A stretch of DNA of 64,000 nucleotides, from contig SMSO01000031.1 in the NCBI GenBank assembly GCA_004764695.1, forward strand, positions 5,513,261 through 5,577,260, read 5' to 3'. Within the stretch, counting starts at the first letter, position 1; the number at the start of each line of letters is the position of its first letter. The notes below the pieces were generated by a model, which saw only the letters and a program-made list of their open reading frames with translations, did not search any database and was not told the DNA's origin. This document shows, in pieces, positions 3,313 to 8,271 of the stretch. This stretch comes from Schizochytrium sp. TIO01 (taxonomy: Eukaryota; Sar; Bigyra; Thraustochytrida; Thraustochytriidae). The position numbers and the translations under genes were made by a program.

Positions 3313-6300
3313 TCATTCAAAAATGTAAGGGCCCAGCAATCGCAATGATTCACTAAAGGCAACGATTAAAGCTTCCAATATATCAAGCTCTACTTTCTGC
3401 GTAGCAAGAAATTCCTCTTTCGAGCTCTGCTCACCATTACTGCTAGCAAGCAGACTCTGTCCAGAACGACTGAGTTTCACTGAAGATGGCATAGAAAGTG
3501 CATTGTTTACAGCATGTATACAACCAAGCTCACGAGAGATCTGCTCAAGACTTGTCCTTCTTGTCTTTGCATAATAAATCTCTTCATTCAATTTCAGCTC
3601 CCTCTGTCCTTCATAGCTCAATCTTAATCTAAGAATTAGCAGACCAAATAGCATCATCTCCGTTCGTCAGTTAACAATTGAACCTCATCTAAGGTACCAA
3701 AGGAATGATAGTACAATTTCATTTCTCCTTTGATGTGGTCATGCTCTCTGTTGCATCCACCCCAACCAAACAAGCAAAAACAGAATTAAACAAACAAGCA
3801 ATCGAGTAAACTTGCTAAACAAAACTTGACAAAAAAACACCAACCCACCCACCAACCAACAAAGCAAGGATCATGTACAAAAACGTCTTTGAGCTGCGTA
3901 GACAACTTACTCGAGTGATGTCAGCGACCGGTTCTCTTTCAGCGCCGCACCCACTGCCTTGCCGCCCTCGTCGCCGATATTGTTCGCACGAAGACTGTTG
4001 ATATAATTCAATGATGGCAAGCAATACATTACATTGCAATGCATTACATTAGATACATGCATGCATGGACGTGAGTGATCTAGGTTGGCTGTCAGCTATT
4101 ATCTTTGTTGTGTTGTCATTTTGCTCTTTGTTCGATGCATGTATACTCACTCAAACAGACAACCCATCCATCCATCCATCCATCCATCAAACAAACCAAA
4201 CAAACAAGCAAGCGATTGCATAAACTTGCAAAAAAACACCGACCCACCCACCAAATAACAAACCAAGCATCATGTACAAACAAGTCCACGAGCTGCGGTG
4301 TTGCGTAGACAACTTACGATAGTGATGTCAGCGACCGGTTCTCTTTCAGCGCCGCAGCCACTGCCTTGGCGCCCTCGTCGTCGATCTGGTTGTGTTGAAG
4401 ACTGTCGATTTGATGGAATGATGGCAAGCAATACATTACACGTTACATATTACAATAAATGCACGCATGCATGCATGGACGTGAGTGATCTAGGTTGGCT
4501 TTCAGCATTTATCTTTGTTGTGTTGTCATTTTGCTCTTTGTTCGATGGATGTATACTCACTCAAACAGACAACTCATCCATCCATCAAACAAACAAGCGA
4601 TTGCATAAACTTGCAAAACAACACCGACTCACCCACCAAACAACAAACCAAGCATCATGTACAAACAAGTCCACGAGCTGCGGTGTTGCGTAGACAACTT
4701 ACTATAGTGATGTCAGCGACCGGTTCTCTTTCAGCGCCGCACCCACTGCCTTGGCGCCCTCTGAGCCGATACAGTTGCTTTCAAGACTGTCGATTTGATT
4801 GAATGAAGGCAGGCAATATATTACATTACACGTTACATATTACAATAGATGCACGCATGCATGCATGGACGTGAGTGATCTAGGTTGGCTTTCAGCATTT
4901 ATCTTTGTTGTGTTGTCATTTTGCTCTTTGTTCGGTGGATGTATACTCACTCAAACAGACGACCCATCCATCCATCAAACAAACAAGCGATTGCATAAAC
5001 TTGCATAACAACACCGACCCACCCACCAAATAACAAACCAAGCATCATGTACAAACAAGTCCACGAGCTGTGCTGTTGCGTAGACAACTTACTTGAGTGA
5101 TGTCATCGATCGGTTCTGTTTCAGCGCCGCAGCCACTGCCTTGGCGCCGTCTGAGTAGATAAAGTTGCTTCTAAGACTGTCAATTTGATTGAATGATGGC
5201 AACCAATACATTACACGTTACATATTACAATAGATGCACGCATGCATGCATGGACGTGAGTGATCTAGGTTGGCTTTCAGCATTTATCTTTGTTGTGTTG
5301 TCATTTTGCTCTTTGTTCGATGGATGTATACTCACTCAAACAGACAACTCATCCATCCATCAAACAAACAAGCGATTGCATAAACTTGCAAAACAACACC
5401 GACTCACCCACCAAACAACAAACCAAGCATCATGTACAAACAAATCCACGAGCTGCGGTGTTGCGTAGACAACTTACGATAGTGATGTCAGCGACCGGTT
5501 CTCTTTCAGCGCCGCACCCACTGCCTTGGCGCCCTCTGAGCGGATTTTGTTGCCACAGAGACTGTCGATTTGATTGAATGATGGCAATTAATACATTACA
5601 CGTTACATATTACAATAGATGCACCCATGCATGCATGGACGTGAGTGATCTAGGTTGGCTTTCAGCATTTATCTTTGTTGTGTTGTCATTTTGCTCTTTG
5701 TTCGATGGATGTATACTCACTCAAACAGACAACCCATCCATCTATCAAACAAACAAGCGATTGCATAAACTTGCAAAACAACACCGACCCACCCACCAAA
5801 CAACAAACCAAGCATCATGTACAAACAAGTCCACGAGCTGCGGTGTTGCGTAGACAACTTACTTGAGTGATGTCAGCGACCGGTTCTTCTTCAGCGCCGC
5901 AGCCACTGCCTTGGCGCCCTCTGAGCCGATATTGTTGAGACTAAGACTGTTGATATAATTCAATGATGGCAAGGAATACATTACATTGAAATGCATTACA
6001 TTGGATACATGCATGGACGTGAGTGATCTAGGTTGGCTTTCAGGATTTCATCTTTGTTGTGTTGTCATTTTGCTCTTTGTTCGATGGATGTATACTCACT
6101 CAAACAGACAACCCATCCATCCATCAAACAAACAAGCGATTGCATAAACTTGCAAAACAACACCGACCCACCCACCAAACAACAAACCAACCATCATGTA
6201 CAAACAAGTCCACGAGCTGCGCTGTTGCGTAGACAACTTACTCGAGTGATGTCAGCGACCGGTTCTCTTTCAGCGCCGCACCCACTGCCTTGGCGCCCTC

Positions 6301-8271
6301 TGAGCCGATCTCGTTGCTTCTAAGACTGTCGATTTGATTGAATGATGGCAAGCAATACATTACACGTTACATATTACAATAGATGCACGCATGCATGCAT
6401 GGACGTGAGTGATCTAGGTTGGCTTTCAGCATTTATCTTTGTTGTGTTGTCATTTTGCTCTTTGTTCGATGGATGTATACTCACTCAAACAGACAACCCA
6501 TCCATCCATCAAACGAACAAGCGATTGCATAAACTTGCAAAACAACACCGACCCACCCACCAAACAACAAACCAAGCATCATGTACAAACAAGTCCACGA
6601 GCTGCGGTGTTGCGTAGACAACTTACTTGAGTGATGTCAGCGACCGGTTCTTCTTCAGCGCCGCAGCCACTGCCTTGGCGCCCTCTGAGCCGATATTGTT
6701 GAGACTAAGACTGTTGATATAATTCAATGATGGCAAGGAATACATTACATTGAAATGCATTACATTGGATACATGCATGGACGTGAGTGATCTAGGTTGG
6801 CTTTCAGGATTTCATCTTTGTTGTGTTGTCATTTTGCTCTTTGTTCGATGGATGTATACTCACTCAAACAGACAACTCATCCATCCATCAAACAAACAAG
6901 AGATTGCATAAACTTGCAAAACAACACCGACCCACCCACCAAACAACAAACCAAGCATCATGTACAAACAAGTCCACGAGCTGCGGTGTTGCGTAGACAA
7001 CTTACTATAGTGATGTCAGCGACCGGTTCTCTTTCAGCGCCGCAGCCACTGCCTTGGCGCCCTCTGAGCCGATTTCGTTCCACTTAAAACTGTCGATTTG
7101 ATTGAATGATGGCAAGGAATACATTACACGTTACATATTACAATAGATGCACGCATGCATGCATGGACGTGAGTGATCTAGGTTGGCTTTCAGCATTTAT
7201 CTTTGTTGTGTTGTCATTTTGCTCTTTGTTCGGTGGATGTATACTCACTCAAACAGACAACGCATCCATCCATTAAACAAACAAGCGATTGCATAAACTT
7301 GCAAAACAACACCGACCCACCCACCAAACAACAAACCAACCATCATGTACAAACAAGTCCACGAGCTGCGGTGTTGCGTAGACAACTTACGATAGTGATG
7401 TCAGCGACCGGTTCTCTTTCAGCGCCGCAGCCACTGCCTTGGCGCCCTCTGAGCCGATATAGTTGCCGTCAAGACTGTCGATTTGATTGAATGGTGGCAA
7501 GCAACACATTACACGTTACATATTACAATAGATGCACGCATGCATGCATGGACGTGAGTGATCTAGGTTGGCTTTCAGCATTTATCTTTGTTGTGTTGTC
7601 ATTTTGCTCTTTGTTCGATGGATGTATACTCACTCAAACAGACAACTCATCCATCCATCAAACAAACAAGAGATTGCATAAACTTGCAAAACAACATCGA
7701 CCCACCCACCAAACAACAAACCAAGCATCATGTACAAACAAGTCCACGAGCTGCGGTGTTGCGTAGACAACTTACTTGAGTGATGTCAGCGACCGGTTCT
7801 CTTTCAGCGCCGCAGCCACTGCCTTGGCGCCCTCTGAGCCGATTTTGTTCCTATATAGACTGTCGATTTGATGCAATGATGGCAAACAACATATTACACA
7901 TTACATTAGATGCATGAATGCATGGACGTGAGTGATCTAGGTTGGCTTTCAGGATTTCACCTTTGTTGTGCTCTCATTTTGATGTTTCTTCGATTGATGC
8001 ATACTCAATAAATCAACCAAGCAAGCAAGCAAGCAAGCAAGCAAGCAAGCAAGCAAGCAAGCAAGCAAGCAAGCAAGCAAGCAAGCAAGCAAGCAAGCAA
8101 GCAAGCAAGCAAGCAAGCAAGCAAGCAAGCAAGCAAGCAAGCAAGCAAGCAAGCAAGCAAGCAAGCAAGCAAGCAAGCGAGCGAGCGAGCGAGCGTCTTA
8201 ACTTACTTCAGTGTTGTAGCGCCATTCTGAAGCTGTTCAAGAGCAGCGACAACACGTGGGTGGTCTGACAT
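3313..8271 (-). CDS. LRR protein, one repeat per exon (13 exons, 434 aa)
   Basis: Exons, in order of transcription: 8207-8271, 7776-7859, 7391-7474, 7006-7089, 6627-6710, 6242-6325, 5863-5946, 5478-5561, 5093-5176, 4703-4786, 4318-4401, 3911-3994, 3313-3628. Every donor reads GTAAGTT; acceptors read CGACAG or CAACAG (TTCTTAG for the last). Exons 2-12 are each exactly 84 bases, phase 2 to phase 2, encoding one 28-residue RNI/NLRC3-type leucine-rich repeat of form LxxNxIxxEGAKAVAAALKE plus NRSLTSL. Exon 1 starts at ATG 8271 (MSDHPRVVAALEQLQ...). The last exon gives about 105 residues with no known domain. Spliced length is 1305 nt, in frame without internal stops. I see no signal peptide or membrane segment, so a cytosolic LRR protein is likely. 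Function is unknown; a recognition role is inferred from the variable concave face. An alternative 3' splice site overlaps the start (GATGTCAG), so an upstream exon is possible. Confidence 0.85.
3911..7859 (-). repeat. Tandem array of eleven ~385-bp exon-plus-intron units
   Basis: The motif GTGATGTCAGCGACCGGTTC (plus strand, inside each exon) recurs at 3915, 4322, 4707, 5097 (variant), 5482, 5867, 6246, 6631, 7010, 7395 and 7780. Spacings are 379-390 bases, with one of 407. Each unit is an 84-base LRR exon and an intron of 295, 301, 306 or 323 bases. Introns contain shared simple-sequence islands (TGGATGGATG, TTGTTTGTTTG, GCATGCATGC), which could favour unequal crossing-over. Introns following exons 5 and 7 are the 295-base subtype. 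The plus-strand open frames across this block (frames beginning MLCCHFALCS or MMASNTLHVT) are passengers of the conserved introns. Confidence 0.93.
8023..8194. repeat. (GCAA)n microsatellite in LRR intron 1
   Basis: About 40 copies of GCAA, grading into GCGA at the right end, lie inside the first intron of the LRR gene. They start 12 bases downstream of its donor in the direction of transcription. The acceptor-proximal half of this intron still matches the other array introns (GAAAGCCAACCTAGATCACTC on the minus strand), so the microsatellite replaced or displaced the donor-proximal half. Confidence 0.97.

Follow-up and report, generated by a model that had tools for sequence, protein, structure and literature searches.

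Gene structure and predicted product

The window studied here is a whole stretch of 64,000 nt from the genome of the thraustochytrid Schizochytrium sp. TIO01, a marine single-celled stramenopile and a relative of brown algae. Its minus strand bears a gene (positions 3313-8271) of 13 exons, eleven of which encode one leucine-rich repeat (LRR) each. The gene belongs to a family of dozens of genes, most of them close to contig ends, composed of near-identical exon cassettes that differ for the most part at the expected contact residues, which suggests a recombining recognition repertoire. The exons of 65 nt, 11 x 84 nt and 316 nt give a spliced length of 65 + 924 + 316 = 1305 nt, a single open frame that runs to the stop codon and encodes 434 aa. 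The donor GTAAGTT is present at 12/12 introns, every intron ends with AG, and phase 2 is found on either side of all eleven 84-nt exons. In the list of open reading frames (ORFs) of at least 120 aa, the sole overlap with the gene is a 131-aa frame on the opposite strand. These data bear out the sequence-only reading (an earlier note made from the DNA letters), which had described a 13-exon gene with one LRR per exon, identical donors, symmetric exon phase and no long open frame. Its view of a tandemly amplified gene stands as regards the array but not as regards a single gene, since we deal with one member of about 45 loci that appear to recombine their exons across contigs. Judged from its sequence, the gene looks functional, and its transcript would be spliced in vivo at the following junctions:

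8207-8271, minus strand: exon 1 of 65 nt, with the start codon and the N-terminal cap (MSDHPRVVAALEQLQNGATTL), register kept at 31/31 aligned loci
7860-8206, minus strand: intron 1 with a (CAAG)n tract
7776-7859, minus strand: LRR exon 1, 84 nt, phase 2-2
7391-7474, minus strand: LRR exon 2, 84 nt
7006-7089, minus strand: LRR exon 3, 84 nt
6627-6710, minus strand: LRR exon 4, 84 nt, same sequence as LRR exon 6
6242-6325, minus strand: LRR exon 5, 84 nt
5863-5946, minus strand: LRR exon 6, 84 nt, same sequence as LRR exon 4
5478-5561, minus strand: LRR exon 7, 84 nt
5093-5176, minus strand: LRR exon 8, 84 nt
4703-4786, minus strand: LRR exon 9, 84 nt
4318-4401, minus strand: LRR exon 10, 84 nt
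3911-3994, minus strand: LRR exon 11, 84 nt
3313-3628, minus strand: last exon, 316 nt, orphan C-terminal tail of about 104 aa, predicted to form two long helices

A hidden domain upstream of exon 1 was considered and is not supported, as an in-frame stop lies six codons ahead of the ATG.

The profile search of the predicted protein, which the sequence-only reading had called for, matched the 434-aa product to a number of LRR models, among them LRR_6 (E 4e-76). Only one model of another kind passed its cut-off, SpoU_sub_bind; it fell inside the repeats with no individually significant stretch and was taken as spurious. Sequence matches in the PDB comprised a ribonuclease-inhibitor-like chain (E 7e-73), ribonuclease inhibitor itself (RI; E 9e-36) and NLRP LRR domains, as well as RanGAP and ciliary LRR proteins. 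The 28-residue repeat has the consensus LxxLxLxxNxLxxxGxxxLxxxLxxx of the RI-like class, and by this sequence measure the repeats are RI-type LRRs. The profile search found no ROC-COR, NACHT, NB-ARC or PYD domain in the product, in agreement with the earlier statement that ROCO and NB-ARC parts are missing. By hydropathy only, with no dedicated predictor, the product shows neither a signal peptide-like nor a strongly hydrophobic stretch (19-residue Kyte-Doolittle means of at most 1.34), and the protein therefore looks intracellular. Having neither a membrane-like segment nor a nucleotide-binding domain, it is most readily taken as a soluble binder inside the cell. The earlier term "receptor-like" should therefore be used with reserve.

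The tail encoded by the last exon had no homologues at E<=1 among 132 word-sharing candidates and none in IMG/VR, and its best Pfam matches had E 0.11 or weaker. A single-sequence structure model of the tail consists of two helices (pLDDT 77, pTM 0.33). Across the family, the last repeat is distinguished by Trp at codon 22 (14/31 last repeats vs 4/192 other repeats), a putative C-cap signature as expected for a capped fold; the last repeat of the gene at 3313-8271 is without this Trp.

The exon-per-repeat family across the genome

The source genome comprises 64.06 Mb, and the window has a GC content of 39-49% per 2 kb; similar values, 62.1 Mb and 45.66% GC, are given for Aurantiochytrium limacinum (PMC7262427). 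The first exon with its flank matched 38 places in the source genome, and the last exon with its flank matched 40. A 35-nt exon core, allowing up to three mismatches, gave 495 genome matches, while the reversed control gave 0. Merging the first-exon, last-exon and exon-core matches by hand, we obtained about 45 loci of an exon-per-repeat LRR family. On the 12 contigs longer than 1 Mb, 20 of the 32 loci lie less than 100 kb from a contig end vs 1.3 expected; these are the large contigs that carry loci, not the whole set, and P values were not used because related copies are not independent. Thirteen further loci are found on contigs of at most 1 Mb. The telomere repeat TTAGGG x5 gave no match, and the claim is therefore limited to the distance from contig ends, which are not proven telomeres. 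A literature search returned nothing on this thraustochytrid LRR family, and neither "leucine" nor "LRR" occurred in the thraustochytrid genome papers searched; one thraustochytrid transcriptome paper ascribes relatively few LRR proteins to its species (PMC8917795). A genome search with PF13516 yielded 17 weak matches with 150 of 617 candidates scored; it missed the arrays and was not used.

Nine loci with both gene ends in one segment comprise 12, 4, 16, 11, 5, 11, 11, 7 and 11 units, where the ninth locus includes one length-altered unit and the 7-unit segment contains N bases. The locus in the window has a 99.6% identical twin of about 7.4 kb on another contig (C5), and a second pair of loci (C14/C31) is 99.5% identical. 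Two further features of the window belong here:

1700-9069, minus strand: duplicated segment including the whole gene, 99.6% identical to the C5 copy, left end not reached
9125-9660, no strand assigned: conserved, apparently non-coding block upstream of the gene, 67-80% identity to 12 other family segments

The near-identical pairs (C30/C5, 99.6%; C14/C31, 99.5%) are what one would expect if an assembly artefact or haplotype duplication had yielded the array and the family. We give this explanation hardly any credence: the C5 similarity ends at window position 9069, with 764 further C5 bases compared, and the other loci vary in unit number (4-16) and in hypervariable (HV) content. An assembly artefact is unlikely also because this architecture is found again at loci of 4, 5, 7, 11, 12 and 16 units.

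A coding nature of the 9125-9660 block was rejected by eye, its indels not being codon multiples, and the block may be a promoter region common to these loci. Between it and the gene lie two 5S rRNA genes in tandem (8736-9015, a 161-bp repeat), and the C5 duplication stops at 9069, just past them. Elsewhere in the genome, five diverged 84-nt LRR exons were noted at C13:4074079-4078854 (L074) and C24:3987730 (L051); their donors are GTGAGTT, GTAAGTA or GTAAGTT, and they possibly represent an older relative of the family.

Coding conservation was assessed on exon hits from 260 kb of examined genome DNA, mostly near gene ends and thus not on all 495 cores. Exactly 84 nt between AG and GT[AG]AG were found in 228/250 hits; sorted by eye, the 22 imperfect hits comprised 16 cut at segment ends and 6 of altered length. 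Without the five diverged exons, 223 units remain, none with an in-frame stop, and without the 11 units of the C5 twin, 212. In these, the called frame contains a stop in 0/212 units, the other two frames in 144/212 and 211/212; the LRR frame is more than chance. The GTAAGTT donor is present in 222 of the 228 exact-length hits, and diversity is 0.01 at +3, 0.01 at +6 and 0.00 at +7 vs 0.03-0.55 at +8 to +60; since the filter required GT[AG]AG, only +3, +6 and +7 count as independent donor support. The first exon is in register at 31/31 aligned loci of the examined DNA (by script, 27 with a length of 65 nt and one with 62 nt; by eye, three more with 65 nt and a GTAGGT donor). The main part of the tail, from nt 41 of the last exon, was compared in 33 of 34 last-exon hits, one being too close to a contig end, and is open at 31/33 loci; those 31 are without pairwise indel, and the last intron and the 3' flank have 17.6 and 14.5 non-triplet indels per aligned kb.

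These figures speak to the idea that the array is a coding-looking minisatellite, that is, a self-spreading 385-bp tandem repeat in which the LRR frame is an ancestral remnant under little selection. The high identity of the tandem arrays fits this idea, as do the six length-altered units and two broken tails. The lack of in-frame stops in all 212 units does not, nor do the 31/33 indel-free tails beside flanks with 14-18 non-triplet indels per aligned kb, the concentration of variation at LxLxxNx and the retention of first and last exons at many loci, and we consider a minisatellite very improbable.

Several observations weigh against the model. With its (CAAG)n tract (about 8017-8195), intron 1 differs from the other introns. 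At the start of the last exon, the first 40 nt have 14.9 non-triplet indels per kb, a value like that of introns, which makes the splice end of the last exon the least certain part of the model. The dN/dS of the tail is 0.83 in the called frame vs 0.61 and 0.99 in the shifted frames; this ratio is non-decisive, so that the case for purifying selection on the tail is the conservation of frame and the lack of indels. Finally, the family contains six length-altered exons and 2/33 broken tails, and an in-frame stop interrupts one of the five diverged units left out of the counts.

Hypervariable codons and probable exchange among exons

Among the 202 distinct exons, diversity is extreme at four positions of the motif. 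Codons 2, 3 and 5 (x of LxxNx) accommodate 20, 15 and 15 amino acids, with entropies of 3.57, 3.40 and 3.14 bits and proportions of nonsynonymous differences (pN) of 0.71, 0.61 and 0.52; for the other 24 codons, pN is 0.085 and the synonymous proportion (pS) 0.119. The Asn codon 4, interleaved among the HV codons, stays at 0.04-0.11, and codon 8 is mostly Asp or Ser. The fourth HV position is the junction-spanning codon between two leucines, set by the variable last triplet of the exon (TGA 57, ATC 56, CAA 37). From LRR geometry and the brown-algal analysis cited below, the HV residues are expected to line the concave face, and the pattern suggests that the codons for these contacts are under diversifying selection.

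At the HV positions, many amino acids are written with a single codon that depends on the position; for instance, Gln is CAA at codon 2 in 18/23 cases and CAG at codon 5 in 19/20. The HV diversity thus looks mostly like copied codon alleles. Third-base diversity within an amino acid is 0.105 at codon 3 and 0.157 at codon 5, with a mean of 0.08 elsewhere. Synonymous diversity at the interleaved codons 1, 4 and 6 (0.11, 0.06 and 0.13) is near background, and a regional hypermutation hotspot was rejected as the main cause because these sites are not raised.

The flanking introns are far more uniform: pairs drawn from 157 complete introns have a median difference of 0.053 if they lie in one segment and of 0.076 if they lie in different segments. 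The HV codon difference is 0.57-0.66 in every intron-distance bin, amounting to 0.616 for the 314 pairs with 1-2% intron difference and to 0.568 for the 35 pairs below 1%, where HV codons are identical in 8.6%. For biallelic sites of introns and exons (29 sites, 156 units), mean r2 falls from 0.78 at 1-4 nt to 0.47 at 5-11, 0.31 at 12-24, 0.16 at 25-49, 0.10 at 50-99 and 0.035 at 100-199 nt; for the 19 intron sites alone, the values in the same bins are 0.71, 0.60, 0.50, 0.19, 0.16 and 0.067. Four-gamete pairs climb with distance from 0.10 to about 0.4 (70 sites), and 6-mers of codons 2 + 3 are common to up to 8 examined segments. Since association between sites is lost within tens of bases, the exons act like a single recombining pool, and the linkage decay together with the shared 6-mers points to ectopic recombination among the genes. 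Inside the exon, codon 2 is linked to codon 3 (z 11 for excess mutual information), codon 5 is only weakly linked to both (z 2.5-3.0), and the junction triplet is unlinked.

The same data can be read as targeted hypermutation, in which an enzyme or a template (as in diversity-generating retroelement- or deaminase-like systems) changes the HV codons and the rest of the sequence is young. Such a process would account for HV differences that are saturated even at 1-2% intron difference, for codon 3 ending with C in 143/202 exons, for the high synonymous diversity at codon 2, and for the loss of linkage being faster at HV codons than at intron sites. Synonymous sites within the same 20 nt (codons 1, 4 and 6) are near background, and codons 3 and 5 mostly have one position-specific codon per amino acid, as copying predicts; we therefore regard targeted hypermutation as improbable.

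Copying and selection do not explain every observation. The NG86 pN/pS at the HV codons is only 1.11, a low value because pN and pS are both saturated. The synonymous diversity of 0.43 at codon 2 is unexplained by copying. The intron-only linkage extends further than the link between HV codons 3 and 5 (z 2.5), so that recurrent change is also needed; it looks to contribute to the HV diversity, most at codon 2. Codon 3 is not fully uncoupled from the intron, as it is still associated (Cramer's V up to 0.39) with intron sites at a distance of 100-250 nt.

Relation to known systems, proposed mechanism and neighbouring features

The nearest architectural match is the Tetrahymena LRR family with 90-bp exons, not LRR-ROCO. 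In Tetrahymena, LRR genes are built of 90-bp phase-2 exon arrays, most species have more than 1,000 LRR genes, and the authors considered that the 90-bp phase-2 genes may have evolved only once (PMC6564038). REP retrotransposons next to the genes count among the marks of that class. In that account, as here, tandem exons of equal length are separated by phase-2 introns with a junction-spanning amino acid, exons recombine ectopically between genes, and the genes are enriched towards chromosome ends (in Tetrahymena also near centromeres; here towards contig ends). The family described here differs in exon length (84 nt in 228/250 hits vs 90 nt), number (about 45 loci vs more than 1,000 genes) and host (a stramenopile vs a ciliate), as well as in its RI-type 28-residue repeat, its own N-cap and C-tail, and the HV codon pattern and within-exon linkage measured here. 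The resemblance to brown algae proposed by the sequence-only reading finds support in a 2024 report of LRR exons that measure 72 bp, are of phase 2 and have concave sites under positive selection (PMC11378527). Brown algal LRR-ROCO genes are likewise from stramenopiles, with one LRR per phase-2 exon and diversity at the reported concave sites; they have 72-bp exons and 23-residue repeats joined to ROC-COR, whereas our exons are of 84 nt and ROC-COR is missing. The extreme diversity observed here falls at motif positions that would correspond to the LRR-ROCO concave sites. Exon length fails both systems and ROC-COR is missing for LRR-ROCO, so the family is a member of neither. It is a distinct form of LRR exon array that carries an orphan C-terminal tail and adds a third lineage to ciliates and brown algae. 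Since this lineage again has an exon length and a repeat class of its own, equal-length phase-2 LRR exon arrays look recurrent.

The PRDM9 zinc fingers are a contiguous coding array in one gene, whereas the exons here are separate, spliced and distributed over many loci. In both cases contact codons escape homogenisation of 84-bp repeats, as reported for the ligand-contact codons of PRDM9 in a paper which also holds tree-based selection tests to be unsuited to such repeats (PMC3890296). Ribonuclease inhibitor and NLRP LRR domains share the 28-residue LxxLxLxxNx class and give significant sequence matches, but the NACHT and PYD of NLRPs were not found in our product. Some animal NLRs have one 84-nt exon per repeat, a point for which our literature search found no paper. 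Lamprey VLRs have LRR cassettes and hypervariable concave residues, as expected for the family described here, and are thought to be assembled by copying; they are secreted or membrane proteins assembled somatically.

Taken together, the results are probably best explained by a large young LRR family of soluble recognition proteins, shaped by recombination and diversifying selection. Its cassette, an 84-nt exon with an intron of roughly 300 nt, would be a self-contained unit for one 28-residue RI-type repeat. Repeat number would shift by unequal crossing-over within arrays, and introns and scaffold residues would be homogenised by ectopic exchange of short tracts, through gene conversion or micro-crossover, between the roughly 495 cassettes spread over many contigs. 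Diversifying selection would preserve many codon alleles at the four LxLxxNx positions, on the expected concave face, while recombination would reassort these alleles, with some repeated replacement on top. The products would be horseshoe-shaped proteins, soluble and inside the cell, that combine a fixed N-cap with a C-tail of helices. An intracellular, immune-like recognition role is likely, most likely through binding of variable partners, for example viral, bacterial or parasite proteins, or self/non-self markers.

A repertoire with a task other than defence is somewhat unlikely; it might serve to recognise mates or self, act as a scaffold in the cytoskeleton or flagella, or regulate ribonucleases or GTPases of the cell itself. 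Such a repertoire agrees with the RI/RanGAP-like class, to which ribonuclease inhibitor, RanGAP and ciliary LRR proteins belong (PDB matches), and with the absence of a recognised signal peptide-like segment or effector domain. We would argue, however, that scaffolds seldom need 15-20 residues at contact positions, and that diversity and contig-end placement fit recognition families better. A bolder extension of the recombining recognition family, which we regard as rather unlikely, is an anticipatory repertoire: about 500 cassettes would form one recombining pool, and their contact codons, even those of a single exon, would be reassorted largely independently of each other. New binding surfaces would then keep arising from strain to strain, and possibly also inside a clonal culture, and exon skipping would provide additional forms. 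Lamprey VLR diversification would thus have a counterpart that is intracellular and encoded in the germline. With its homogenised scaffold set against saturated contact codons, the family lends itself to the study of how a recognition repertoire is built by recombination together with selection. Thraustochytrids are culturable, some are transformable and some of their viruses are known, so that function and clonal turnover are directly testable.

Other features of the window are as follows. The 5' end of a small-subunit rRNA gene (1-237, minus strand) is cut by the window edge. A tRNA-Gly region (9964-10066) recurs in clusters at about 7.136-7.141 Mb of C30 and 1.352-1.355 Mb of C32, and a neighbouring enzyme has its best match, at 90%, in Hondaea fermentalgiana. 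Two large single-ORF TPR proteins (21590-26545, 1651 aa; 28514-32500, 1328 aa) have similar TPR matches near their ends and are possible tandem paralogues. An ORF of 2809 aa (47479-55908) combines IQ, ankyrin, WW and EF-hand domains, and the ORF at 59773-61176 matches a MINDY-3/4 deubiquitinase domain, an EF-hand and a RanBP zinc finger. A second LRR protein of 838 aa (39639-42155, plus strand) is encoded by a single open frame, unlike the exon-per-repeat family.

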